The translations under genes and the position numbers were made by a program. A stretch of 36,220 nt of DNA from Gemmatimonadota bacterium. GTDB lineage: Bacteria; Gemmatimonadota; Gemmatimonadetes; Gemmatimonadales; Gemmatimonadaceae. Of the stretch, positions 15,038 through 30,815 are shown piece by piece; positions within the stretch are counted from its first letter, which is position 1, and each line of letters starts with the position of its first letter. The notes under the pieces were generated by a model. The model did no database searches, was not told the DNA's origin, and saw nothing but the letters and a program-made list of their open reading frames with translations. Where the stretch lies: positions 1 through 36,220 of the forward strand of contig JARIEY010000011.1 of assembly GCA_031127085.1 (NCBI GenBank), written 5' to 3'.

Positions 15038-15835
15038 ATGCAAACACCAGGATGGCCCGCACGTTTCGGTCTCTCCGCGCCGTGGGTGGCGATCTGCCTG
15101 ACTATTCAGGTGGCGCCACTGCCCGCCCAAGACGGCAAGGACACGCGATACAATCAGGAGACGGTCGCCATCATGCGGCGTGTGATGACGCCAACGGCGA
15201 ACGGGGTCGACGTGGGCGCATACAAGGGCGCACTCACGAAACCGATGCTCAAGATCGCGCCGCGCGGCACGCATATCGCCGTCGAGCCGCAGCCGGCCTA
15301 CGCACGACGCCTGCGCAAGCGGTTTCCCAAGGTTCGCGTGCTCGAAGTGGCACTCGGTGACACGATGGGCACGGTGGAGTTCGTGCAGGCACTCGACAGT
15401 CCCGCGCGCAGTGGCTTCCGGCGCACCGAGTACCCGACGGCCCGTGAACGCACGCGGACCATCAGCGTCCGAGTGGAACGACTCGACGACCTGGTCGCAC
15501 CGACGGCCCCCCTCAGCTTCATCAAGATCGACGTCGAGGGCGCTGAGTATCAGGTGCTTCGAGGTGCCAAGGCAACGATTCAACGTGACCGTCCTGTGAT
15601 CGTGTTCGAGTACGGACGGGCGGGGCGACAGGACTATGGCATCGAACCTGCCGCGATGTGGCAGCTGCTGCACATCGAACTCGGGATGGAAATCAGTCTC
15701 ATGCGGGACTGGCTGGATGGGCGTCCGGCCTTCACCGAGACGGACTTCACGCGTATGGTCGGATCAGGGGTGGAGTGGATGTTCGTCGCGCACCCGGCGC
15801 AGAGTTCGACCCCGTCGAACGGAGCGCCCCGCTGA
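15038..15835 (+). CDS. FkbM-family methyltransferase
   Basis: NGVDVGAYKGALTKPMLKIAPRGTHIAVEPQPAYARRLRKRF, SFIKIDVEGAEYQVLRGA. ATG at 15038 (ORF track uses GTG 14984). Confidence 0.85.
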   Translation: MQTPGWPARFGLSAPWVAICLTIQVAPLPAQDGKDTRYNQETVAIMRRVMTPTANGVDVGAYKGALTKPMLKIAPRGTHIAVEPQPAYARRLRKRFPKVRVLEVALGDTMGTVEFVQALDSPARSGFRRTEYPTARERTRTISVRVERLDDLVAPTAPLSFIKIDVEGAEYQVLRGAKATIQRDRPVIVFEYGRAGRQDYGIEPAAMWQLLHIELGMEISLMRDWLDGRPAFTETDFTRMVGSGVEWMFVAHPAQSSTPSNGAPR

Positions 15836-16986
15836 TGTCCACCGTGCGCGTGCGTCGGGCGGCCTCGCGCGGCGACCTCCGGGCGTTCATCGGCCTCCCC
15901 TATGAACTCTACGCCGGCCCCGAGTGCGCGAACTGGGTGCCGCCGCTGCGCGTGGCCGTTGCCGACGCGCTTGATGACCGGCGGAATCCGTTCTATCACA
16001 ACGCCGCCCGCGAGCTGTTTCTCGCTTTTGAAGGAGAACGCCTCGTCGGACGCATCGCGGCCATCGAGAACCGGGCGCACAATCAGTTTCATGAGGATCG
16101 CACGGGGTTCTTCGGGTTCTTTGACTGCATCAACGATCAGGCAGTCGCCTCGGCCCTGCTCGACGCCGCCGCGCAGTGGCTCGTAGAACGCGGCCTCGAG
16201 GTGATGTGGGGACCGATGAGCCCCAGCACCAATCACGAGTGCGGCCTGCTCGTCGATGGGTTCGAGCATCGGCCGACCTTCATGACGCCGTGGAACCCGC
16301 CGTACTACGCCGCATTGTGCGAAGCGTCCGGGTTGACAAAGTGCAAGGACCTGCTCGCCGTCTGGTTCTCCATCAAGGACGCCGATTTCCGTCCGCCGGA
16401 GTTGGTGACCCGGCTCGCGGACCGGGCGCTGCAGGGCGGGCGAATGACCTTTCGCGACGTGGACATCGCCAACTGGGATCGCGATGTCGGCATCTGCTGG
16501 GAGATCTACAACGAAGCGTGGGAGCGGAACTGGGGTTTCGTGCCGATGAGCCGAGAGGACTTTCTGCACGCGGCCAAGGATCTGAAACTTCTCCTGCGCC
16601 CCGACCTTTCGTTCATCGCCTATGTTGGCGAGACGCCGGCAGGCTTTATGCTCGCGTTGCCCGACTATAACGAGGCGCTGCGCTTCAACCGCAGCGGCCG
16701 CCTCTTCCCCTTTGGACTTGCTCGAATGCTCTGGTTCAAGCGACGCATGCGCACCGCACGCGTCTTCGCGCTTGGAACCCGCACCGCGTATCGCTCCCGA
16801 AGCATTCTTCCGCTCTTTACGTACGAGATCATGCGCCGGGGGCAGGCACTCGGCGGCGAGGGGGCTGAGGCTTCTTGGCTGCTCGAGGATAATCACCTCA
16901 TTGTGAAACCAATGCGCACCATGGGCGCCACCAACCGGATGCGGTGGCGCATCTATGAGCGACAGCTGGGCGGAGTGGGCGCGTGA
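15835..16986 (+). CDS. GNAT-like acyltransferase of the YghO / bacterial ceramide synthase-like type
   Basis: MSTVRVRRAASRGDLRAFIGLPYELYAGPECANWVPPLR...FYHNAARELFLAFEGERLVGRIAAIENRAHNQFHEDRTGFFGFFDC...MWGPMSPSTNHECGLLVDGFEHRPTFMTPWNPPYY. 1-nt TGATG overlap with FkbM gene. Start revised from ORF 15658. Confidence 0.65.
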   Translation: MSTVRVRRAASRGDLRAFIGLPYELYAGPECANWVPPLRVAVADALDDRRNPFYHNAARELFLAFEGERLVGRIAAIENRAHNQFHEDRTGFFGFFDCINDQAVASALLDAAAQWLVERGLEVMWGPMSPSTNHECGLLVDGFEHRPTFMTPWNPPYYAALCEASGLTKCKDLLAVWFSIKDADFRPPELVTRLADRALQGGRMTFRDVDIANWDRDVGICWEIYNEAWERNWGFVPMSREDFLHAAKDLKLLLRPDLSFIAYVGETPAGFMLALPDYNEALRFNRSGRLFPFGLARMLWFKRRMRTARVFALGTRTAYRSRSILPLFTYEIMRRGQALGGEGAEASWLLEDNHLIVKPMRTMGATNRMRWRIYERQLGGVGA

Positions 16987-18260
16987 ACCCGCGCCGGGTC
17001 GTCGTCACGGGCATGGGCGCCATCACGCCGTGTGGTGTGGGGCTCGAACCGACCTGGGCCGCCGTGACCTCGGGGCAAAGTGGCATTGCGGCCATCAGCT
17101 GCTTCGACGCGTCCGCGCTGACGACGCGCATCGCGGGCGAGGTGCGCGGCTTCGTCGCCGAAGACCATATGGACGGCAAGCTGGCGCGTCGACTGGGCCG
17201 ATATCAGCAGTTCGCCATGGCGGCGGGAGAGATGGCGATGCGTGACGCGGCGCTGGTTATCACGCCGCAGCAGGCGGAACGAGCGGCGGTGGTGGTCGGA
17301 TCATCCACGGGTGGTCTTTCGGAGGCCGAGGCGACGATACATGCCACCGGCCTGCGGGACCCGAAGGCCGTGAGTCCGTTCTTCATTTTGAACGTGCTGC
17401 CCAACGTTGCCGCCAGCTATCTGAGTATCCGTCACGGCATCAAAGGACCGAGTTGGTCGACCAACAGCGCCTGCGCGACCAGCGCACACGCGTTGGGTGA
17501 TGCAATGCGGATGATCCAACGCGATGAAGTGGACGTCGTGCTGGCCGGCGGAGCTGAGGCCCCTATTGGCTTCGTCTGCGTCGCCGGATTCGGGGCGTTG
17601 CGTGCGCTGTCGACTCGCAACCACGATCCCGAACGCGCAAGCCGTCCGTTCGATACCGATCGCGATGGCTTCGTGCTGAGCGAAGGCGCCGCCATGCTCG
17701 TCCTCGAGGATCTCGATCACGCGCGCGCGCGGGGCGCCCGCATCTACGCAGAGTTGGCTGGGTACGGCTCGACATCCGACGCGCACCACATCACGCAGCC
17801 AGCCCCCGGCCACGAAGGCTCGCAACGCTGCATGCGCGCCGCGCTACGCGACGCGCAACTCGCGCCGTCAGCGATTGACTACATCAATGCGCATGCCACC
17901 TCGACGCCACTGGGCGACGTGGCGGAGATCGCCGCCATCGAGGCGGTGTTCGGTGAGCACGCCAAGCGCGTCCCCGTGTCGTCCACCAAGTCGATGATGG
18001 GGCACCTGACCGGAGCGGCCGGTGCGGTCGAGGCGTGCCTGAGCGTCCTCGCGCTCACCACGGGCGTACTGCCACCGACCGTCAACCTCGATTCATGCGA
18101 TCCGGCGATCGGCATGGACTGTGTACCGCACCGCGCGCGGCGGCACGAGTGTGGCGCCGTCATGACGAACTCGTTTGGCTTTGGTGGCACCAACGCCGTG
18201 CTCGTGTTTACGCGAACACGCGATGAGATGCACGACCCGATGACACGGTCGATTCCGTAA
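16983..18260 (+). CDS. Beta-ketoacyl-ACP synthase II (FabF-like)
   Basis: VVVTGMGAITPCG; Cys in STNSACATSAHAL; His in INAHATSTPLGD and SMMGHLTGAAGAVEA; SFGFGGTNAVLVF. GTG start overlaps preceding stop. Confidence 0.93.
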   Translation: MNPRRVVVTGMGAITPCGVGLEPTWAAVTSGQSGIAAISCFDASALTTRIAGEVRGFVAEDHMDGKLARRLGRYQQFAMAAGEMAMRDAALVITPQQAERAAVVVGSSTGGLSEAEATIHATGLRDPKAVSPFFILNVLPNVAASYLSIRHGIKGPSWSTNSACATSAHALGDAMRMIQRDEVDVVLAGGAEAPIGFVCVAGFGALRALSTRNHDPERASRPFDTDRDGFVLSEGAAMLVLEDLDHARARGARIYAELAGYGSTSDAHHITQPAPGHEGSQRCMRAALRDAQLAPSAIDYINAHATSTPLGDVAEIAAIEAVFGEHAKRVPVSSTKSMMGHLTGAAGAVEACLSVLALTTGVLPPTVNLDSCDPAIGMDCVPHRARRHECGAVMTNSFGFGGTNAVLVFTRTRDEMHDPMTRSIP

Positions 18261-19768
18261 TGCGGCTGCGCCTCCCATCGATGCCGCCACGCGGGGCATC
18301 AATTCTTCTGACTATCGCAATCGCCGCACTGCTTGCACAGGTGGCCGACGCGATCGTTGCCGATCGGGCGATGTACGCCGATGGCGCCAACTTCTTTCTT
18401 GGTTGGCGTCTGGCCCCCGGTGACTGGATCATCGCATCCGATGCGAAGCATCCCCGGCTCTTCGTGAACGCGCTCAACCAAGGGCCCGCCATTCTGGCGC
18501 GCTTCGCGGGCGTAACGGATCTCAACGCCCTTCGCCTGTGGTTCGGCGCGGGATTGTTCGCGGCTCCGTTGCTCATCTTCGGTTGGTGCGTCGCACTCGG
18601 TGCGCGCGCGGCCGACTTCCGCGTGGCGCTGGCAATGGGTGCGGGGACCATCGCCGCTCTGATGCCGTCGCAGATCTTTATTCTCGAGCAGGCCATCACC
18701 ACCACGGCCCTCGCGTGGATGCTGTTGTCCTATCAGGTGCTGCCATTGCGGTGGCGGTGGTACGACATCGCTTTGGTCGCCACAGCGTCGTTCGTATTGC
18801 TACAATCGCACGAGACGATCCTCGTCGAAGGCACCATCCTGGGCCTGCTCGCACTTGAGGCCGTGCGGCTCTCCGGATGGCGGCAGACGAGCCGACAGAC
18901 CCTCTACGTGGGTGCCGTAGGCTTCGCGGTGGCGCTGCACGTGATCTGGTGGATGCACGAGCACCCAATCCTCTCGCAGACGTCGAATTTTCTCGGCCTC
19001 TGGTACGTGGCATTGCCGTGGGAGTTGTGGAGAAACAACGGCCGGCCCACACTGTTTTTGCTCGTGGTTGCGCCACTCGCGATTCTGGGCGCCATGCACG
19101 GAATGCCGACTCCGCTCGCTCGACGCTGGCGCCGCATCGCCGCGTGGGTGGGAGCGATCGGCGCCGCCACGATCCTTGCCGGAGCCCTCACGCCGTGGCT
19201 CAGTCCCGAGGCGGTGGCTCCCCGGGTGCAGTTCGACCTTCGCGTGCTGATCCCATTTGTCAGTGCGGCCTTCATGGCATTGGCGGGCGCGTGGGTATTG
19301 GCAGGACCGGATGCGCGGGCGGGCAAGCACACGACCCTGAAGGTCGCCATTGCGGTCGCGCTCCTGGGCGGTACCAGTTGGCAGTTCGCCAATACCGCTC
19401 AGTGGCGGCAGTTCGACGGCGCAGTTCGCACCGTGCTGACATCGTCGCCCGCCGGGGAGGTTGACCCGGAGCTCGTGCGCGAACTGCTCGTTCAGCGCGC
19501 GGCGCCGAATGCCTGGCGCATGCAGTGGGAGTGGGCGTGGGGCTTCCTTTCCCTGGCGCGCCTGGACCAACCGCGCGTCTCGGTCATTATCGTCCCCACG
19601 TCTGAGCGCCAGTCGTTTCGCTCGCCGCGCACGTCGCAGGATTCTCTCCATCTCCCGTGGCTGCGCTCCATTCCCCCCGATGGGGTCTACCGCTTAGATG
19701 CCCTCGCCGCGGCCTGCGCGCAGGGACGGTGCGGTATCGTGCCGGCACCGCCGCAATCGGTGCGTTGA
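18260..19768 (+). CDS. Polytopic membrane protein, paralog A
   Basis: Many TM segments; VADRAMYADGANFFLGWRL...LFVNALNQGPAILARFAGV. TAATG overlap with fabF-like gene. By-eye homolog of ORF 29313..30815. Confidence 0.8.
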   Translation: MRLRLPSMPPRGASILLTIAIAALLAQVADAIVADRAMYADGANFFLGWRLAPGDWIIASDAKHPRLFVNALNQGPAILARFAGVTDLNALRLWFGAGLFAAPLLIFGWCVALGARAADFRVALAMGAGTIAALMPSQIFILEQAITTTALAWMLLSYQVLPLRWRWYDIALVATASFVLLQSHETILVEGTILGLLALEAVRLSGWRQTSRQTLYVGAVGFAVALHVIWWMHEHPILSQTSNFLGLWYVALPWELWRNNGRPTLFLLVVAPLAILGAMHGMPTPLARRWRRIAAWVGAIGAATILAGALTPWLSPEAVAPRVQFDLRVLIPFVSAAFMALAGAWVLAGPDARAGKHTTLKVAIAVALLGGTSWQFANTAQWRQFDGAVRTVLTSSPAGEVDPELVRELLVQRAAPNAWRMQWEWAWGFLSLARLDQPRVSVIIVPTSERQSFRSPRTSQDSLHLPWLRSIPPDGVYRLDALAAACAQGRCGIVPAPPQSVR

Positions 19769-19770
19769 GC

Positions 19771-20472
19771 CTATCCGCCGAACATCGCCCGCGCTTTCGC
19801 TAAATCGTCGGGGAAGTCAATCTCTACCCACGGCGCGCCATCAGTTGGCACCGCCACGACCATCGTGTCGGCCAGCATCCGCGCCAGCGCATCCTCGTAG
19901 CCCCCGGCGGTCTCGCCCTGCGCGATCTGTGTCAGAATGGCGTGGCGCAGACGCCGGACCGAGGCCGCGCTGAGTTTGGCAAACCCAACCCACTCGCCCT
20001 GCGTCTCATACCCGTCCGCCGGGCCCCGACGCAGCGCGCGCACGCGAGCACCGTCGATGCCGGCCATATACTGCTCGTCCGTGAAGACCGTACCAACATC
20101 CACAAGCAATGCGTCCGGTCCTTCGGCGTGCACCAGCCGCGCGAGAAGCGTCGGGTCGAAAGCAACATCGCCGTCCAGCAGCAGCACATCACCGTCAACT
20201 ACGTCCAACCCGGTCGCGAGCGAGACCACGCTCCCTTCGGTGTAGCGCGCGTTGTCGAGCAGCGTCGGAGGCGCCTCGCGCGCGTCGACGTGCGCGCGGA
20301 TAAGGTCAGCCCGGTGGCCGACGACAATCGTCACCGGCAGGCCCAACGCCCCCAGCGCATCGAGGTATCGGTCGAGCAGCACCCGGTCACCGACGGTCGC
20401 CAGGCACTTGGGGGCGTCGTGCGCCAAGCCCAGCCGCGTCCCGCGGCCAGCGGCAAGAATGAGCGCCCTCAC
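19771..20472 (-). CDS. Nucleotidyltransferase, probable CTP:2-aminoethylphosphonate cytidylyltransferase (PntC/LicC-like)
   Basis: Intact ILAAGRGTRLGLAHDAPKCLATVGDRVLLDRYLDAL, LLLDGDVAF, WVEIDFPDDLAKA; ATGA overlap with the phnW stop. Confidence 0.82.
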   Translation of the reverse strand: MRALILAAGRGTRLGLAHDAPKCLATVGDRVLLDRYLDALGALGLPVTIVVGHRADLIRAHVDAREAPPTLLDNARYTEGSVVSLATGLDVVDGDVLLLDGDVAFDPTLLARLVHAEGPDALLVDVGTVFTDEQYMAGIDGARVRALRRGPADGYETQGEWVGFAKLSAASVRRLRHAILTQIAQGETAGGYEDALARMLADTMVVAVPTDGAPWVEIDFPDDLAKARAMFGG

Positions 20473-21539
20473 CGGCCGAGCACCGTCCGCATCTCACGCA
20501 GCAGCGCGTCGATGGCATCGTGGCGGAAGTGCCCGATGATCCCGAGCCGGAACGCGCGCTCCTTCAATGGCCCCTGTGCCGCGTAAATGCAGAGTCCCGC
20601 GCGCTTGAGCGGCGCGTGGAGCGCGTCATATGTCCACCCATCGGGCAAATGGCACGCCACGAGCGTGTTGCCGTACGCGTCGCGTGGCAGCAACAGCTGG
20701 ATGCCCATCGCCTCAAGACCGTCGAGCAGCCGCTGCATCAGCGACGCGTAGTGGGCCTGCCGCGCCGCGACCCCCTCGTCCAGCGTCTCCTGCAACGCCT
20801 CGCGCAGAGCGAACATCGCGTGCAGCGGTGGCGTGAAGGGAAACTCGCCGTTCACCTCCGCCGCGGCGTGCGCGGCCAGGTTGCTGTAGTGGGCGCCACG
20901 CTGCAGCTCAGCGGCGCGCCGCAGTGCAGGACTGGCGATGACGAAGGCCGCTCCCGGCACACCACGCAGGCACTTGTTCGCTGACCCAATCACGCCGTCG
21001 AGGTCCCACCCAGCGATGTCGATCGGTTCGCCAATGATACTGCTCACCGTGTCCGCCAACACCAGCACTCCTCGGCGCTTGGCCACCGCCGTCACCTCGC
21101 GCAGCGGATTGAGGCGGCCGGTCGCGGTCTCGTGATGCACCAGATACACCGCACCATATGCAGCACCATCCAGTCGCGCGCCAAGCGCATCGAGCGGAAT
21201 CGACTCGCCCCACCCTAAGCGCCACTCGTCGATGTCAACGCCGTGATGGCGTCCCATCGCCGACGCGCGCTCGCCATACGGTCCGTTCGCGATCACGAGC
21301 ACCTTACCCAGCGGGCGCGCCGCCGCAATGATGGCCTCGATCGCAACGGAACCCGAACCGCCCAGCAGCACAATCTCATGCGGTGCCGCGTCGTCCAAGC
21401 CTGTCACCAGACGGATGTCACGGCGGATCTCCGCCAGCAGCGCGCCAAACTCCGGCTCGCGGTGTCCGATATCCGGATGCAACAACGCGTGACGCACCCG
21501 TTCGGAGATGTTCGAAGGGCCGGGAGAAAAGAGGATCAT
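20469..21539 (-). CDS. phnW: 2-aminoethylphosphonate--pyruvate transaminase
   Basis: MILFSPGPSNISERVRHALLHPDIGHREPEF, LLGGSGSVAIEAII, PLP-lysine context GVIGSANKCLRGVPGAAFVIA. Start corrected to ATG 21539, overlapping the ppd stop (ATGA). Confidence 0.92.
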   Translation of the reverse strand: MILFSPGPSNISERVRHALLHPDIGHREPEFGALLAEIRRDIRLVTGLDDAAPHEIVLLGGSGSVAIEAIIAAARPLGKVLVIANGPYGERASAMGRHHGVDIDEWRLGWGESIPLDALGARLDGAAYGAVYLVHHETATGRLNPLREVTAVAKRRGVLVLADTVSSIIGEPIDIAGWDLDGVIGSANKCLRGVPGAAFVIASPALRRAAELQRGAHYSNLAAHAAAEVNGEFPFTPPLHAMFALREALQETLDEGVAARQAHYASLMQRLLDGLEAMGIQLLLPRDAYGNTLVACHLPDGWTYDALHAPLKRAGLCIYAAQGPLKERAFRLGIIGHFRHDAIDALLREMRTVLGR

Positions 21540-22690
21540 GGAAGCGGCGGCGAAAGGGTGCGGCGAAGTCGGTTCGCTACGTCGTGCGGCGCGATCGTGG
21601 GGCGTCCGAGATCCTTGCTGGCGCCAAGGGCAATGCGACAATGAACGAAGTGCGGCCCAGGCACGCGTTGCGCATCCGCAACGGCACGCCCCAGCTCAAC
21701 GACGCCATCCACGGTGCAGGCCGAGGCATAGCCGCACGCCCGCGCGAGCCCGGGAAAGTCCACACTCGGCGCAATCGTCTTCTGCGCGCCGGTCGAGTCG
21801 TACGCCTCGTTATCGAGTACCACGTGCACGAACCGCGGCGGGCGTAGGTGCCCCACGCTCGCCACTGCCTCGAGCCGCATCAGCAAGGCGCCATCCCCAT
21901 CGAGCACGAGGACGGGTGTGTCGGTTGTTGTGGCGATGCCGAGCGCTACGCTCGGTGCGCATCCCATGGAGCCAACGAGATACAGGTTGCGCGCGCGGTC
22001 CTCCAGTTCAAACCACTCGCGCCCCGTTTTACCCGTAGTGGCAACGACCACGCTCTCGGGCCGCATCGCTTCGAGTACCGCGGCGAGCGCCTCGCGGCGC
22101 GCAGGGCGCGGACGCTCCGTGAGCGCCGCAGCCGGCGGAGACTCGGGCGCCGGCTGTGCGCTGCGCCGCGGTGTGTACTCGCCCACCACGTTCTTGCGCA
22201 GGATAAAGGCAAACGGCCGGCCGGTCTGCTCCATATGCTCGACGGCGCGCGCCACCGCAGGGCCAATGTCGGCGTCAGAGGCCGGGAACCAATCGTGGGC
22301 GACCTCGAGTGCACGCAGCACGTCGCGCGTCGTGCGCCCCATCAGGGCGTGCTGTGGCTCATCCGGTGCGCCATCCGGGTCCCCGCGCAGCGTGATGATG
22401 AGCAACGCAGGAATCCGGAACGGATCGAGCAGCGAGGTGAGTGGGTTCACCAGGTTGCCAAGCCCGGAGTTCTGCAGCAGCACCACGGGGCGAGCGCCCG
22501 CCAACTGCGCCCCCGCCGCCATCGCCAGCGCCTCACCTTCGTTTGTCGCCGCGATGTACCGCAGGTCATCGCGATCGATCACGTAGTCAATGAACGGACG
22601 CAGATACGAGCACGGTACGCCGACCCACGGCCCAAAGCCGTGCGCGCCGAGGACATCCACAAAGCGCTCCGATGAGACTCGCGCGATCAC
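21536..22690 (-). CDS. ppd: Phosphonopyruvate decarboxylase (ThDP-dependent)
   Basis: RFVDVLGAHGFGPWVGVPCSYLRPFIDYVI, TNEGEALAMAAGAQLAG, NSGLGNLVNPLTSL, MGRTTRDVL, ThDP motif GDGALLMRLEAVASVG...VLDNEAYDSTGAQ. GTG start at 22690 overlaps pepM stop (GTGA). Confidence 0.92.
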   Translation of the reverse strand: MIARVSSERFVDVLGAHGFGPWVGVPCSYLRPFIDYVIDRDDLRYIAATNEGEALAMAAGAQLAGARPVVLLQNSGLGNLVNPLTSLLDPFRIPALLIITLRGDPDGAPDEPQHALMGRTTRDVLRALEVAHDWFPASDADIGPAVARAVEHMEQTGRPFAFILRKNVVGEYTPRRSAQPAPESPPAAALTERPRPARREALAAVLEAMRPESVVVATTGKTGREWFELEDRARNLYLVGSMGCAPSVALGIATTTDTPVLVLDGDGALLMRLEAVASVGHLRPPRFVHVVLDNEAYDSTGAQKTIAPSVDFPGLARACGYASACTVDGVVELGRAVADAQRVPGPHFVHCRIALGASKDLGRPTIAPHDVANRLRRTLSPPLP

Positions 22691-24390
22691 GATGAGACCA
22701 GCCGGCAGGCGAGTTCGTAGTCGGCGAAGCTGCGGAGCTCGAGCCACCCCGACGTGACTTCAAGCGCCGTTATGTCGAGTCCGCCCGCTAGGGCACGCTG
22801 CAGCAGATCGGGCACCGCGGCAGCACCCATACCTTCCGCCTGATCGCGGAGCACCGGCCACTGCGACGACGAGACCAGCACAAGTCCGGCGAACTCGCCA
22901 TTCGCCGTCTGCGCATCGACCCCGCTGCCAATGGCGAGCACGCGACGCGGCGCTGACGGGCTCAAGAAGCGCTTGGAGGCGGTCCCCTCATCGTCGACGT
23001 GGACAAAATCCCGCGTCGTATGCCCCGGCGTTACCGGTCGATCGCTCCGATCGACCACCACGGTACAAGGATCCGCCGTGGCGAGCAGGCGTTCAATCAG
23101 CGGACGCTCGACGAGGACATCGCCGTACCAGACGAGTGTGCGCGCATCCGCAGCGTCCGGTGTAGCCGGAGCGGCTAGCAACGACCCGACCTCACCGCCC
23201 GCGGGCCACGAGGTACTTACGCAAAGGCGCGCGCCAGAGGCAGGCACCGCATCGTGACGATAGCCCGCCACAACAGTGATGTCGGCAATGCCGCACTGGC
23301 GCAGCACCTCCACCTGACGATGAACCAACGACTGCCCGTTCACATCGAGGGCCGCGAGAGGCACGCTACCGGTCAGCGACGCAAGGGTCGGGTCGTCTCG
23401 GTGATCACCCGCGTGGAGGAGTATGGCGCGCGTCGGCACCGCGCCGCTGCGGTCGAAGGCCTGCTCCGCCGCCCGGTGGGCCGGCATCCCCTGCAGGTCA
23501 AAGAGCACGCTCAGCGGCGCAATCTCGCCTTCGACCGCGAGACTGTTGCCATCTCGCATGATCGTCCGCCAGGTGTCGCTCACGGCGCGCGCTGCGGCGC
23601 GGATTCCCTGATTGGCGTAGATCACCATCTTGATCCCCAGTGCGTCCGCCTCGGCCACCCCCAGCGTGGGATACGTCGTGGGAACCACAATCACCGGCAC
23701 CGAGGGGGTCCAACGCTGCATGAACTCGCGAATCCCCTCAGCGGTGCGCGATTTGTCGTGGATCAGCAGCGCGTCGGCGCCGGCACGCACATAGGCATCG
23801 GCACGCCTCAGCGCCTCGTCGACTCCCCACCCGGCAATAAGCGCTTCCGTGCGCGCGATGACGGCGAACTCGCGGGTGCGCTGCGCGTTCTTCGCGGCGA
23901 GAATCTTCCCCACGAACTCCGCCACCGAGGCCAACTCCTGCTTGCCATCGATGAAGCTGTTGGTCTTGGGGAAGCACTTGTCTTCAATGCAGACCGCAGC
24001 GACACCTGCCGCCTCGAACAGGCGCACCATACGCATCACATTGTTCGAGTTGCCGTATCCCGTGTCGCAGTCGGCGATCACGGGCACCGGCGCCACGCCC
24101 TGCGCGATGCTCTCCGCAGCCGCGAGATACTCGGTCATCGTGAGGATACTGGCGTCGGGCACTCCGTGGGCCGACGAGATCTCAAAGCCGCTGGACCAGA
24201 TGGCGTCGAGCCCCGCCTGCACCGCGAGCTTCGCGCCCAACGCATTGTGGGCGCCGGCCACGCGACCCACGCCCGGGCGCGCCCAAAGCGCACGCAGTCG
24301 TTGCGCGGGAGTTCCAGTTTCGGTGCTGATCGGCGTCACGGCGTGTCTGGGTTGAGGCTCTCGCGTACATTCAACAGATTGCGCGGCCAT
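22687..24390 (-). CDS. pepM: Phosphoenolpyruvate mutase with C-terminal nucleotidyltransferase-like domain
   Basis: Diagnostic PepM motif EDKCFPKTNS; AHNALGAKLAVQAGLDAIWSSGFEISSAHGVPDAS; C-terminal domain with ITVVAGYRHDAV and YGDVLVERPLIERLL. Alternative GTG start at 24339. Confidence 0.94.
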   Translation of the reverse strand: MAAQSVECTREPQPRHAVTPISTETGTPAQRLRALWARPGVGRVAGAHNALGAKLAVQAGLDAIWSSGFEISSAHGVPDASILTMTEYLAAAESIAQGVAPVPVIADCDTGYGNSNNVMRMVRLFEAAGVAAVCIEDKCFPKTNSFIDGKQELASVAEFVGKILAAKNAQRTREFAVIARTEALIAGWGVDEALRRADAYVRAGADALLIHDKSRTAEGIREFMQRWTPSVPVIVVPTTYPTLGVAEADALGIKMVIYANQGIRAAARAVSDTWRTIMRDGNSLAVEGEIAPLSVLFDLQGMPAHRAAEQAFDRSGAVPTRAILLHAGDHRDDPTLASLTGSVPLAALDVNGQSLVHRQVEVLRQCGIADITVVAGYRHDAVPASGARLCVSTSWPAGGEVGSLLAAPATPDAADARTLVWYGDVLVERPLIERLLATADPCTVVVDRSDRPVTPGHTTRDFVHVDDEGTASKRFLSPSAPRRVLAIGSGVDAQTANGEFAGLVLVSSSQWPVLRDQAEGMGAAAVPDLLQRALAGGLDITALEVTSGWLELRSFADYELACRLVSS

Positions 24391-24447: not shown

Positions 24448-25473
24448 GTGTCGACTGAGCCGGTCTCGACTTCATATCGTTTTACCGATCGGTCGCTCCT
24501 TCGACCCTGGCTCACGCGGGTCTGGTTTGAGCGCCTGTTCCCGCTGCTGCCACGCTGGCTGGCCGCCAACATCGTCACGGTGCTATCCACCGGGGTGCTG
24601 CTCAGCGTGCTGCTCGCGTCCTTCGTGGCGGACCAGATCGGGGCCGCAGGCTACGCGCTCCTGCAGTTGGTGGCGCTGCAACTCTACGTTGCAGGCGACC
24701 ATCTCGACGGGATGCAGGCCAAGGCAAGCGGTACGACATCGCCACTGGGCGATTTTCTGGACCATCACTGCGACCTGTGGGCCGGCTGCGTGCTCTGCTT
24801 CGGCTTCTGGAGTCTGACGGGGGGCCCTCTATGGGAGCTCTTCGTGCTCACCGGCCTGATGATCCTCGGCTTCGCCATCACCTACGTGGAACGCGCCGAA
24901 CGTCGCGCGTTGCACTTCACCTCGTGGGGCACGCTCGAAGCGATCGCCATCGTCACGGCGTTCTATCTGGCGTGGTGCTTCGGGCCCGTGCGTGCCTGGT
25001 TTCAGCAGACCACGGCAGGCATTCCACGGCATATGTTCGTCGCTGCCATCGGCGTCGTAATGTGCGTCGGCGTGATCGTTGTCATCGCGCGGCGCCTCGC
25101 GCGCCTTCCCGTGCCGCTGCTCCTGTTCGCCTCGATGCTCATCGCGCTCGCCGTGTGGATTGTGCGCCATCCCGCACTCCCTCCGCTGGCGGGCTGGCTG
25201 CTCGTTGGACTCGCGGGCGCAGAGTACGTGGCGCGGGTGATGCAGGCGCACACGACCACGCGACCGCGCCCGTGGCCCGATGCCCTGGCCGTGCTTGGGA
25301 CGGCCGCCCTGTGGCTACGCTATCCGGTTGCTGACGCACCGGTGCCAATCCTGATCGCCTTCGGAGGCTGGCTCACACTGCGGTATCTGGTCACGCTCAC
25401 CAGAATCATCGCCGGCTGGCGGATGCACTGGGTGTGGGTGAACGCAACACCCGGCGACTCGGCGAAAGGCTAG
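24448..25473 (+). CDS. CDP-alcohol phosphatidyltransferase, choline/ethanolamine phosphotransferase-like
   Basis: Motif GDHLDGMQAKASGTTSPLGDFLDHHCD fits D(x2)DG(x2)A[R>K](x8)G(x3)D(x3)D; multiple TM helices. GTG 24448 is the likely start; the track ORF from 23254 reads antisense through pepM. Confidence 0.88.
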   Translation: MSTEPVSTSYRFTDRSLLRPWLTRVWFERLFPLLPRWLAANIVTVLSTGVLLSVLLASFVADQIGAAGYALLQLVALQLYVAGDHLDGMQAKASGTTSPLGDFLDHHCDLWAGCVLCFGFWSLTGGPLWELFVLTGLMILGFAITYVERAERRALHFTSWGTLEAIAIVTAFYLAWCFGPVRAWFQQTTAGIPRHMFVAAIGVVMCVGVIVVIARRLARLPVPLLLFASMLIALAVWIVRHPALPPLAGWLLVGLAGAEYVARVMQAHTTTRPRPWPDALAVLGTAALWLRYPVADAPVPILIAFGGWLTLRYLVTLTRIIAGWRMHWVWVNATPGDSAKG

Positions 25474-25499: not shown

Positions 25500-26375
25500 A
25501 TGGCAGGTGACGGCAACGAAAACACACTACATCTTTGGTCGGTGCAACACCCCCGCCTGGAACTCAGCGCCACGCCCGCGCCCCGTACGCTCGTCATCGT
25601 GCCGATGTACAACTGCGCGCCGCAGATCACGCGGGTGCTGGCGCAGTTTCACACGGCGCCCGCGTGTCAGGTCGCGCGGGTACTGGTGGTCGATAATCGG
25701 TCGACCGACGATGGCCTGCAGGTCGCGACGCGCGCACTCGCCGCGATGACCGCGCCGGAGGTGCTCTTGGTGCGCAACCGGGAGAACTACGGGCTCGGCG
25801 GTTCGCACAAGGTCGGCTTCAGGCACGCGATCGCCCATGGCTTTGATCGCGCTGTCATCCTGCATGGCGACGACCAGGGCACAATCGAGGATCTGCTCCC
25901 GACCCTTGCGCGCGCGCCGCAGCGGGACGCGTGGCTCGGCGCTCGCTTCATGCCCGGATCGCAACTGCACGGCTATTCCACACTGCGCTCGCTCGGCAAC
26001 CGCGCGTTCAACGCGTTGTTCGGTCTGGTCGCCAGGCGTCGCGTCTTCGATCTCGGGTCAGGCCTCAACTGCTATGATGTGCGGATCCTGCGCGACGGTT
26101 TCTATCGGCGTTTTCCCGACGATCTGACCTTCAACTACTGCATGATTCTGGCGCACATCGCGCTGCGCCACGACATCACGTTCGTGCCGATTCGGTGGCG
26201 TGAGGACGATCAAGTCTCCAACGTGCGGCTCACGCGCCAGGCGCTCAAGGTGCTGCGCTTGCTGTCCCACTTCGCTGGCGGCGCGACGGCCTTCCTGCAG
26301 CGCGAGTGGCGCGCCACGCCCCGGGACGCGTACGAATGTGAGCTGATCGCCGCGAACTATCCGGCCGCCGTGTAG
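25500..26375 (+). CDS. Glycosyltransferase family 2 protein
   Basis: TLVIVPMYNCAPQITRVLAQF, VLVVDNRSTDDG, RNRENYGLGGSHKVGFRHAI, ILHGDDQG. Alternative GTG start at 25434 overlapping the preceding gene. Confidence 0.87.
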   Translation: MAGDGNENTLHLWSVQHPRLELSATPAPRTLVIVPMYNCAPQITRVLAQFHTAPACQVARVLVVDNRSTDDGLQVATRALAAMTAPEVLLVRNRENYGLGGSHKVGFRHAIAHGFDRAVILHGDDQGTIEDLLPTLARAPQRDAWLGARFMPGSQLHGYSTLRSLGNRAFNALFGLVARRRVFDLGSGLNCYDVRILRDGFYRRFPDDLTFNYCMILAHIALRHDITFVPIRWREDDQVSNVRLTRQALKVLRLLSHFAGGATAFLQREWRATPRDAYECELIAANYPAAV

Positions 26376-27206
26376 ATGTCGACACTGGCCCTCGCCATCC
26401 TCGCATACATCGCCTCGCACGCTCTGCGGTACAGCCGCGTGCGCGTTCTCTTCCGAGAAGCGCGTCGCCGTGACGCACGATTGCTCGAGGCGCATCTCAC
26501 CAGCGCGTGGGTCGGCGCGCTCCTCCCGTATCGCTTAGGTGAGTTGGCGAGGCTCTCGCAGTTCATCTCCGTCGCGGGCCAGTGGCGTATCGGCGCTGCC
26601 GCCTACGCGATGGAGAAGTTCTTCGACGCGGTCTTTCTGCTCTGTGTCTCGTTGCTGGCGCTCTTCACCGCGTCATCCCCATTTCCACTGGGATCGCTGC
26701 TAGCGCTTCTTGCCGTGGTGATTACCGCCGGGATTGCGCTCTACGCGACCGCCGAGGGGATGATTGAGTGGAGCGCTCGGCGCCTCCTCTTCGCACCTCC
26801 CTCGCCGGCGCGTATGGGACTGCTGCGCGCGGTCGCAGAGGCGCGCACGCAGATGGCCGCGGTCCGTACCACCGTGCGCCGCCGCGGCCTCTCACTCGCC
26901 GGCCTGACGGCGGGTATCTGGTTGCTCGATGCTTCGGCGTTCGCCTTGGCGATGGCCTCGCCCGCGCGACTTTCGTTCCAAGCGGAGTGGGCGGCATTTC
27001 TCACCCTGCTGCAGGATATGCTGCGGGGACCGCTCGGTGCTGGCGGCGAACGCTATGCCCTAGTAGTCATCGTTCTGCTTTCGCTCGGTGCCGCGGCCTG
27101 TGCCGTCAGCTGGGCACGACGGATGTTCCGCCGCCTCCAGGGCCGAGATACGGCTCGCCCGCCGTATAGACTCTCCTTCGCCTCGCCAGGCAGCCCCGAT
27201 GAGTGA
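26376..27206 (+). CDS. Lysylphosphatidylglycerol synthase TM / flippase-like domain membrane protein
   Basis: Starts immediately after the GT2 stop; LTSAWVGALLPYRLGELARLSQFISVAGQWRIGAAAYAMEKFFDAVFLL with multiple TM helices. Confidence 0.7.
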   Translation: MSTLALAILAYIASHALRYSRVRVLFREARRRDARLLEAHLTSAWVGALLPYRLGELARLSQFISVAGQWRIGAAAYAMEKFFDAVFLLCVSLLALFTASSPFPLGSLLALLAVVITAGIALYATAEGMIEWSARRLLFAPPSPARMGLLRAVAEARTQMAAVRTTVRRRGLSLAGLTAGIWLLDASAFALAMASPARLSFQAEWAAFLTLLQDMLRGPLGAGGERYALVVIVLLSLGAAACAVSWARRMFRRLQGRDTARPPYRLSFASPGSPDE

Positions 27207-28635: not shown

Positions 28636-29410
28636 TCATCCGTTCGGCAGCGTGGTGATTACGATGGCAGGCGCCGGACGCCGGTTTGCCGACGCCGGCT
28701 ACCAGGGTCCGAAGTACCAACTGCTCGCGCACGGAGAGACCCTGTGGTGGTGGTCGATGATCGGCCTTTCCCACTTGTTCTCGACGGCGCGCTTTGTCTT
28801 TGTGGCCCGGGCGGAGGATTCCAGTCGCGCCTTCCTGCAGGCGGAGTGCCGTCGCCTCGGCATTCGCTCGCACGAGGTGATCGAGCTCGACCACTCCACC
28901 GATGGACAGGCCACGACAGCGCTCAGGGCACTTTCCGCGTGCGATGCCTCGGCTCCGCTCAGCATCTTCAATATCGACACGCACGTGAGGCCCGGAAGTC
29001 TTGGTGCCGTTCCGGAGGAATCGGACGGTTGGATTCCCTGCTTCGCTGGACGGGGCGACCACTGGAGCTTCGTAAGACTCGGCCCCGAGGGCCGAGCCGT
29101 CGAGGTGCGCGAGAAGCAACGCATTGCCCCGCACGCCACGATCGGTTTCTACTGGTTCAGTTCTGCGCGCCTGTTCTGTGCCGCGTATGACGCGTTCTAC
29201 GGGTCCAACCATCCGGCGCGTCCGCCGGGCGAGGCGTTTGTAGCGCCCATCTACAATCACCTGATAGGCGCTGGCCTGTCCGTTCGTATTTCGATGATCC
29301 CCGATGACGCCGTCACGGTGCTGGGGACGCCCGAGGAACTGGTGCGGTTTCAGCAAGCAGCCGCGCCGTCCATTGTTCGAAGCGAAGGATACCGCTCGCC
29401 GGCAACGTAA
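28628..29410 (+). CDS. Nucleotidyltransferase (NTP_transferase-like)
   Basis: VVITMAGAGRRFADAGYQGPKYQLLAHGETLWWWSM, IFNIDTHVRPG. Start overlaps kinase stop (ATGCGTAG). Confidence 0.78.
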   Translation: MRSHPFGSVVITMAGAGRRFADAGYQGPKYQLLAHGETLWWWSMIGLSHLFSTARFVFVARAEDSSRAFLQAECRRLGIRSHEVIELDHSTDGQATTALRALSACDASAPLSIFNIDTHVRPGSLGAVPEESDGWIPCFAGRGDHWSFVRLGPEGRAVEVREKQRIAPHATIGFYWFSSARLFCAAYDAFYGSNHPARPPGEAFVAPIYNHLIGAGLSVRISMIPDDAVTVLGTPEELVRFQQAAAPSIVRSEGYRSPAT

Positions 29411-30815
29411 CAAACGGCACACGCAGCGAGTCCGTCGCGGTGCGTGGCAACCCGAAGCGCGCCCGCGCCCAGTCAGGTTCGATCACGGCCGTCACGACCG
29501 CGCTGTCCTGCAGGCTAAGACCGAATACACTCCACGCCCAGGTGTTTCGGAACTGCCAGACCTCAGGCGCCGCGGTGCGCAGGAGGGTATGCATAACCGC
29601 TCGTGAAGACACCAACGGTCCGTCCGCCGACCGCAAGGCATCCTGCGTCGCGGTACGATAAACGCGCCATTGTGCGGTGGTTCGCATTTGCCAGACCGAC
29701 GAGGCGATCAATCCGGCGGCGAGTGTGCCAGCGAGCAGGCGCTGGTGCGAGGCAGTCAACCGGACGTTCATCCTCATCACCGCAACGGCGAGCGCCATGC
29801 AGAGGGCGCCACCGAACGGGATCAGCACCCGGTGCTGGAATGCGCGATTCGGATCGAGCGACGCAGGGTCGCTCAAGGCAAGGCCAACGCTCAGGCCCAT
29901 GATCGCGATGGCGCCGAGAACGACGATGGTGATCGCCCGGTCACTGCGCGCCCATCCGATCGCACGACGTGCCCGCGCCGCTGCCGCGATGACGAAGATC
30001 ACGGCAACCACGCCGCCCGTTACCAGCGCCACGCGTGCACTGCTCGTCCACATGGCCCATGGGTTTGCGACGTGACGGAGCTCGAGGAACTCCCGGGTTT
30101 GCGCCTGCACAGGATGCGTCTTCTGCCACCCGAGGACGAACGCCGATTGAGCTGCTCCAAGCAGGCTCAGCGCCATAACGGCACCGCGGGGACGACCGGT
30201 GAGAGCGCGGTACTCGGCGACGAGACGGAGGATTCCGGCAGCGGCGGTGATCCCGCCCCATAAGACCATGCCCTCGTGGGCCCTGAACAGCAGCACGCTG
30301 ACCGTCGCCATGACCACGATGTCGTGCCACCGGTAGCGCATGGGCAGGAGGATGTAGTGCAGCGCAATCCACGCCAACGCCAGTGCGGTGATTCCTTGAT
30401 TTATGACGAACAGCTCCGAGGGCATCACACAGCTGACAACGCTGGTAACTGTCAACGCGAAGACCCGATAATCATTGGCGCGACGACTCAACGCATAGCA
30501 GTACACGTACAGCAGCGCCGGCTGAAGAAACAGGCTCGCGCCAAACAGCCGCCGAAGCGTGGGAATGTCCTCGACGCCGACCATCCGTGCCAGAGACACC
30601 GGCCACTGGTTCAGCACATTCACCAGAAGACGAATGTGCACGGAATCATCAAAGACGGGCCACGGCGCCGTGCTCGTGATCAGCCGAATGAAGAACTGCG
30701 CGCCATCGCTGAACAACGCGCGGTCGGAGATAATGGCGTAGCACAGATGCGCACCATAGACGGCGCACGCCATCCACACGAAGGCGGCAACGGTCGGACG
30801 GAGTGGCGCTCTCAT
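29313..30815 (-). CDS. Polytopic membrane protein, paralog B
   Basis: ISDRALFSDGAQFFIRL...LLVNVLNQWPVSLARMVGVEDIPTLRRLFGASLF aligns along its length with ORF 18260..19768. Confidence 0.8.
   Translation of the reverse strand: MRAPLRPTVAAFVWMACAVYGAHLCYAIISDRALFSDGAQFFIRLITSTAPWPVFDDSVHIRLLVNVLNQWPVSLARMVGVEDIPTLRRLFGASLFLQPALLYVYCYALSRRANDYRVFALTVTSVVSCVMPSELFVINQGITALALAWIALHYILLPMRYRWHDIVVMATVSVLLFRAHEGMVLWGGITAAAGILRLVAEYRALTGRPRGAVMALSLLGAAQSAFVLGWQKTHPVQAQTREFLELRHVANPWAMWTSSARVALVTGGVVAVIFVIAAAARARRAIGWARSDRAITIVVLGAIAIMGLSVGLALSDPASLDPNRAFQHRVLIPFGGALCMALAVAVMRMNVRLTASHQRLLAGTLAAGLIASSVWQMRTTAQWRVYRTATQDALRSADGPLVSSRAVMHTLLRTAAPEVWQFRNTWAWSVFGLSLQDSAVVTAVIEPDWARARFGLPRTATDSLRVPFVTLPASGILRFEQWTARLLAETAPVPRASPAP

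Follow-up and report, generated by a model that had tools for sequence, protein, structure and literature searches.

A candidate CDP-AEP:lipid aminoethylphosphonotransferase of the CPT1/CEPT1 type in Gemmatimonadota

Introduction

In the paper describing the structure of CHPT1, helices 7-10 of the fold were called exclusive to the eukaryotic members (PMC10182977). On the phosphonate side, Rice 2019 (PMC6697681) stated that the tailoring steps following CMP-AEP are unknown, and the Nostoc and Burkholderia phosphonate clusters contain CDP-alcohol phosphatidyltransferase genes with a proposed role in phosphonolipid synthesis (PMC5987646, adapting Yu 2013). Bdellovibrio stolpii makes a sphingolipid with a phosphonate head. 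The CDP-choline pathway of Treponema denticola includes a CPT-like enzyme, so that CPT-like proteins in bacteria are in themselves already known; the relatives gathered here include a Treponema putidum protein (L053). Which enzyme moves 2-aminoethylphosphonate (AEP) onto a lipid in bacteria? Our literature search turned up no phosphonolipid or ceramide-AEP synthase, and the bacterial enzyme seems not to have been named. We propose the product of positions 24448-25473 of the window as a candidate CDP-AEP:lipid aminoethylphosphonotransferase. The window, the whole stretch of 36,220 nucleotides analysed, is the entire contig C4 of a fragmented, 81.7% complete Gemmatimonadota genome; a plasmid search gave no match.

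Results

The transferase belongs with CPT1/CEPT1

24448..25473, + strand: CDP-alcohol phosphotransferase, CPT1/CEPT1 type, 341 aa, GTG start
24697..24774, + strand: CDP-binding and catalytic motif, residues 84-109, roles by mapping to CHPT1 (PMC10182977)
24271..24447, no strand: divergent intergenic region between PepM (-) and transferase (+)

Frame 1 of 24448-25473 (+ strand) translates into the 341-aa protein reported in the initial annotation, with the motif quoted there, DHLDGMQAKASGTTSPLGDFLDHHCD, at residues 84-109 (nt 24697-24774). The ORF has a good coding score, and full-length proteins of four other Gemmatimonadota genomes share 44-56% identity with its product. Gene starts are calls from a simple codon model; that of the transferase is supported by the agreement of its N-terminus, VSTEP..., with MSTEP... 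in two relatives (L036 and L042), and PepM could start at 24390 instead of 24270. The match to Pfam CDP-OH_P_transf lies above the cut-off (E 1.7e-8), and the window genome holds four CDP-alcohol transferase genes including this one, the three others being of the same Pfam family.

By eye, the initial annotation had found the protein closer to CPT1/EPT1 than to PgsA/PssA, and it named structure prediction and phylogeny as checks; profile search, fold and tree all agree with that reading. A phmmer search of the PDB with the transferase returned significant matches solely to cholinephosphotransferase and choline/ethanolaminephosphotransferase, and a six-sequence profile matched CPT1/CEPT1 with E 1e-17, the next match being AF2299 (E 0.05). 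The AlphaFold model, built from an alignment of 45 rows (pLDDT 94.4), predicts an N-terminal strand and one helix followed by ten long helices. In Foldseek it matches CEPT1 and CHPT1 over its whole length (E 1e-9, TM 0.71-0.76), and the match after these has E 0.13 and TM 0.41. Helices 7-10 are present in the model, although they were described as missing from other bacterial members. In the tree, a 99/97 branch divides the transferase, its bacterial relatives and eukaryotic CPT1/CEPT1 from 12 other CDP-alcohol transferases, PgsA/PssA-like enzymes among them; the branching order among the bacterial and eukaryotic CPT1-type members is without resolution. A position inside PgsA/PssA, which the initial annotation had named as refuting its reading, is not what the tree shows. 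Judged by sequence and predicted structure, the transferase is thus placed with eukaryotic CPT1/CEPT1 as a variant in which Lys replaces the Arg of the AR pair; because of this residue, K92, we withhold plain membership.

Residue roles were assigned from PMC10182977 by mapping onto Xenopus CHPT1. In this alignment the metal ligands Asp111, Asp114, Asp132 and Asp136 correspond to D84, D87, D105 and D109, Tyr34 (diphosphate) to Y10, Asn64 (cytidine) to N41, the catalytic His133 and Glu129 to H106 and D102, the proposed catalytic pair, and Arg119, the contact of the CDP diphosphate, to K92. Phe186 aligns with F157. D84, D87, G88, G101, D105 and D109 show no variation in 45 rows, the four Asp and the Gly residues of the signature D1xxD2GxxAR...G2xxxD3xxxD4 being kept. 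The wider set of relatives was partly gathered with a motif pattern containing the His, so that motif conservation there is partly imposed; relatives from the whole-protein search are free of this bias, and H106, after D3, is conserved in all that were gathered free of the pattern. At the catalytic Glu position after G2, D102 is a conservative change, most relatives having E. The choline contact Glu43 aligns with R19, a position variable across the family, which makes head-group choice unreadable from the CHPT1 choline site. Verrucomicrobial relatives (L043-L046, L048 and L052) have SR in place of AR/AK in the signature, e.g. DHADGMHSRRTGTSSPLGEFLDH.

Is the Lys a mark of phosphonate chemistry? 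The AK that the initial annotation read for the usual AR is present in 6/6 of the first aligned sequences. Across the family K occupies the position in 16/47 members, R in 30/47 and Q in 1/47, and a small number of changes on the tree accounts for the replacement. Among PepM-linked members the counts are 5 K and 4 R; among unlinked members for which complete flanks were available, they are 5 K, 19 R and 1 Q. A phosphonate signature is refuted by K in clusters lacking PepM and R in clusters possessing it: K at this position is a trait of a bacterial clade, without a tie to phosphonate clusters.

Adjacent genes for AEP synthesis and activation

22687..24270, - strand: PEP mutase (PepM; EDKCFPKTNS motif) fused to a degenerate MobA-like NTP transferase (NTPT) domain
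21536..22690, - strand: phosphonopyruvate decarboxylase (Ppd), TIGR03297 above cut-off
20469..21539, - strand: 2-aminoethylphosphonate aminotransferase, PhnW/AepZ-like, TIGR03301 best match, below its cut-off
19771..20472, - strand: separate MobA-like NTPT, catalytic motif intact, best PDB match T. denticola PntC
25500..26375, + strand: family-2 glycosyltransferase downstream of the transferase, no counterpart found in related clusters
26376..27206, + strand: membrane protein without Pfam match, no counterpart found in related clusters

PepM, Ppd, the AEP transaminase and the separate NTPT all lie on the strand opposite to the transferase, as divergent neighbors, which bears out the earlier description of a CDP-AEP operon next to it. 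The features that define a Pnt gene cluster are all present: the PepM motif EDKxxxxxNS (EDKCFPKTNS), Ppd, a transaminase and a cytidylyltransferase with PntC (6pd1) as best match. Two NTPT domains are encoded, and they have fared differently. The separate protein (19771-20472) has as its best PDB match the AEP cytidylyltransferase PntC of T. denticola (E 1.2e-6), and its R13 and K22 appear to correspond to PntC Arg15 and Lys25, the importance of which has been shown by mutation (Rice 2019, PMC6697681). It keeps both residues wherever its start is completely called and accompanies the transferase even at loci without PepM. From the PepM-fused domain the Arg is missing in almost all clusters examined; in the close clade the Lys is gone as well. 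Given the PntC match, the retained residues and their loss from the fused domain, the separate NTPT is, from its sequence, the likely source of CMP-AEP. The PepM-fused domain, having lost the catalytic Arg and Lys, is disfavored as the activating enzyme, and surveys scoring it as such may need revision for these clusters.

Fused domains without the catalytic Arg were seen in the window (22687-24270) and in L029, L030, L036, L042, L044, L052, L064, L099 and L100. Two large proteins, 34% identical to each other, bracket the cluster (18260-19768, without Pfam match, and 29313-30815, without NCBIfam match). In Opitutaceae, a Stealth-family protein separates the AEP genes from the transferase (L044:6748-7668 and L052:8754-9674).

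Linkage and co-occurrence across phyla

Relatives of the transferase were found in five phyla: Gemmatimonadota, Verrucomicrobiota, Myxococcota and other Deltaproteobacteria, Spirochaetota, and Planctomycetota. Nine loci have PepM, Ppd and the transaminase in the fetched flanks (the window, L029, L030, L036, L042, L044, L052, L064 and L069), so that AEP-pathway linkage recurs in Gemmatimonadota, Verrucomicrobiota, Myxococcota and an unplaced bacterium. At L036 and L042, the NTPT, transaminase, transferase, PepM and Ppd follow one another in that order on a single strand, and at L064 the transferase directly adjoins PepM. Among 298 Gemmatimonadota genomes, the transferase (E < 1e-40) is present in six, the PepM-NTPT protein (at least 250 bits) in seven and both in five, a co-occurrence with Fisher p=7e-9; as the sampled genomes are related, the co-occurrence p-values given here serve only as a guide. 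In one of the five (G248), PepM sits on a separate contig, and the sixth carrier (G176) contains the transferase and NTPT with PepM absent, which means that CDP-AEP cannot be the donor in every case. Relatives without PepM nearby include those of Treponema and many Myxococcota. Along the transferase tree PepM linkage switches seven times, indicating repeated change either of the donor or just of the arrangement of genes.

All five other Gemmatimonadota genomes with the transferase encode PS decarboxylase, which is absent from the 81.7% complete window genome; a necessary role of the transferase in PE synthesis is thus unsupported. As a separate observation, an FkbM-type methyltransferase in the window (15086-15835) has a 65% identical counterpart at an Opitutaceae locus (L039:5727-6398), where a CPT1-type transferase occurs together with an AP-type and a sulfatase-type protein; the similarity suggests transfer between phyla.

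A linked ceramide-like pathway

15835..16986, + strand: GNAT-fold acyltransferase, ceramide-synthase-like by context, adjoining the acyl-AMP-ligase/ACP/SPT gene in L029, L031 and L032
16983..18260, + strand: FabF-type ketoacyl-ACP synthase (TIGR03150), linked to the acyl-AMP-ligase/ACP/SPT block in L032

In four relatives a fusion of acyl-AMP ligase, ACP and a putative serine palmitoyltransferase (SPT), here called the SPT fusion, lies about 4-12 kb from the transferase. L031 and L032 have the transferase, SPT fusion, reductase, glycosyltransferase and GNAT-fold acyltransferase in one stretch, and in L029 the transferase is followed by the SPT fusion and acyltransferase. The window genome carries its SPT fusion on another contig than the transferase, with the acyltransferase in the window. 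That contig (C94, L098) carries in a row a 2OG-Fe(II) oxygenase-like gene, genes for a Phosphodiest-family and then a sulfatase-family membrane protein, a glycosyltransferase matching GT21, an SDR reductase and an acyl-AMP-ligase/ACP/PLP-acyltransferase fusion. Against solved structures the PLP domain of the fusion scores highest with SPT (3a2b, 242.7 bits; KBL 210, BioF 208); in NCBIfam the BioF model scores best, below its cut-off. SPT fusions occur in 11/298 Gemmatimonadota genomes and in 5/6 transferase carriers (p=1.4e-7). Six genomes have the fusion without the transferase, and the divergent Gemmatimonadota transferase carrier G299 is not among the fusion carriers. The GNAT-fold acyltransferase and SDR reductase, conserved beside the SPT-like gene, are by context putative counterparts of bCerS and CerR. 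Ceramide synthesis in Caulobacter uses Spt, bCerS and CerR. This parallel, with the linkage and co-occurrence of the SPT-bearing pathway, favors ceramide as the acceptor in the window lineage.

The 2OG-Fe(II) oxygenase-like gene, which profile search likens to HalD/BesD, accompanies the cluster (L098:5641-6339, L029:10492-11199 and L032:13117-13857). Its product could be an AEP hydroxylase, a role that a similar gene of the Nostoc cluster might also have.

Proposed reaction and its alternatives

PepM, Ppd and the transaminase would produce AEP, which the PntC-like NTPT (19771-20472) would activate with CTP to CDP-AEP (CMP-AEP). The transferase would hold the CDP part through Y10, N41, K92 and two Mg2+ on D84/D87/D105/D109; H106, with D102, would activate a lipid hydroxyl, and AEP would be transferred with release of CMP. 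In the window lineage the acceptor would be a ceramide-type lipid built by the acyl-AMP-ligase/ACP/SPT fusion, acyltransferase and reductase, yielding a sphingophosphonolipid. Transfer of AEP onto a lipid of whatever kind is well supported and in our judgment probable: we infer donor, acceptor and product from the observed family, fold, residues, linkage and co-occurrence, and the tree position and recurrent AEP-pathway linkage support the initial annotation's choice of this gene as the best candidate for that step. That annotation listed diacylglycerol, ceramide and polyprenol as acceptors, among which genome linkage favors ceramide; synthesis of ceramide aminoethylphosphonate from CDP-AEP in the window lineage is moderately supported, and we regard it as an even proposition.

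Why not diacylglycerol? A glycerophosphonolipid made from CDP-AEP and diacylglycerol, much as CPT and EPT use choline and ethanolamine, is a less probable yet serious reading. Diacylglycerol is the substrate of all solved close relatives, and a PAP2-family phosphatase adjoining the transferase in L064 could supply it. Most PepM-linked relatives in other phyla lack a nearby SPT: beyond the close Gemmatimonadota clade, none was found in their fetched flanks, and their acceptor may for this reason be diacylglycerol. In the close clade, however, the transferase is linked to and co-occurs with the SPT-bearing lipid pathway. An ordinary CDP-ethanolamine or CDP-choline phosphotransferase with incidental AEP neighbors, as the relatives without PepM nearby and the PepM-less G176 would allow, is unlikely in view of the repeated AEP-gene linkage in several phyla, one co-directional row included, the PS decarboxylase of the relatives and the PntC match of the partner NTPT. 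PgsA/PssA-type phosphatidyl transfer from CDP-diacylglycerol has the shared Pfam domain in its favor, but tree (99/97), profile search and fold search place the protein elsewhere and contradict membership of that group, and the genome encodes three further proteins with this Pfam domain; this reading is highly improbable.

AEP transfer to ceramide might also be followed by a further step. GPI-ethanolamine-phosphate transferases use PE, and the Phosphodiest-family protein, with its N-terminal helix, alkaline-phosphatase-type domain and many-helix C-terminal half, presumably resembles them in architecture. Most members have the motifs DWxxHE, GDHGH and HKTG. The gene adjoins the transferase in L029-L032, has its window-genome copy on C94, and is found in 5/6 transferase carriers (p=7e-9, 298 Gemmatimonadota genomes); L039 has a homolog downstream of its transferase. 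A planctomycete protein of 1010 aa (L059:9959-12991) fuses a CPT1-type transferase to a sulfatase-family domain, and the cluster is surrounded by capsule and glycosyltransferase genes. This association of Phosphodiest- and sulfatase-type proteins with the transferase suggests that the AEP-lipid may act as an AEP donor to a glycan: on either acceptor, it would be only an intermediate, from which alkaline-phosphatase-superfamily membrane proteins pass AEP to a surface glycan. Against this, the AF2 model of the Phosphodiest-family protein is poor (pLDDT 56), its class resting on Pfam and motifs, and these proteins may be hydrolases. We regard the route as doubtful, including the version in which the CPT1-type enzyme loads ceramide with AEP and its AP-superfamily neighbor hands the AEP to a glycan. 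If true, this two-step route to surface phosphonates would parallel eukaryotic PE synthesis and GPI-ethanolamine-phosphate transfer.

Comparison with known systems

CDP-alcohol transferases in phosphonate clusters have been reported previously; the CPT1-type variant with a specific assignment is new. The ten-helix CPT1 build, eukaryote-only according to one structural paper, extends to several bacterial phyla. The transferase is a good candidate for a bacterial phosphonate-lipid synthase, and a named candidate with a partner cytidylyltransferase and a likely acceptor makes the AEP-lipid question directly testable.

With the eukaryotic CHPT1, CEPT1 and EPT1 of the Kennedy pathway (PMC10156783, PMC10182977), whose human forms make lecithin and PE, the transferase has in common the full-length fold, ten membrane helices, the N-terminal Tyr, the Asn for cytidine, four Asp and the catalytic His, and a lipid-alcohol acceptor is expected. 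It differs in being bacterial, in having Lys for the diphosphate-contacting Arg and Asp for the catalytic Glu, in lacking the choline-contact Glu, and in its proposed donor, CDP-AEP. The PntC pathway (Rice 2019, PMC6697681) has PepM, Ppd, an AEP transaminase and a PntC-like cytidylyltransferase in common with the window, which adds a candidate for the transfer step and a PepM-fused NTPT that looks inactive. The Nostoc and Burkholderia clusters have pepM, ppd, a transaminase, an NTP transferase, a 2OG-Fe(II) oxygenase and a CDP-alcohol transferase in common with it; the description used here mentions no sphingolipid genes, and their transferases are likened to ours by that description. Precedents for ceramide as acceptor are the Bdellovibrio stolpii lipid and Drosophila ceramide phosphoethanolamine synthase (CPES; PMC9550178), likened here by domain and motif. 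CPES has the CDP-alcohol phosphotransferase domain and a ceramide product, but it comes from an animal, its head group is ethanolamine and its motif has R. If the acceptor is ceramide, the cluster offers a candidate route to bacterial sphingophosphonolipids like that of B. stolpii.
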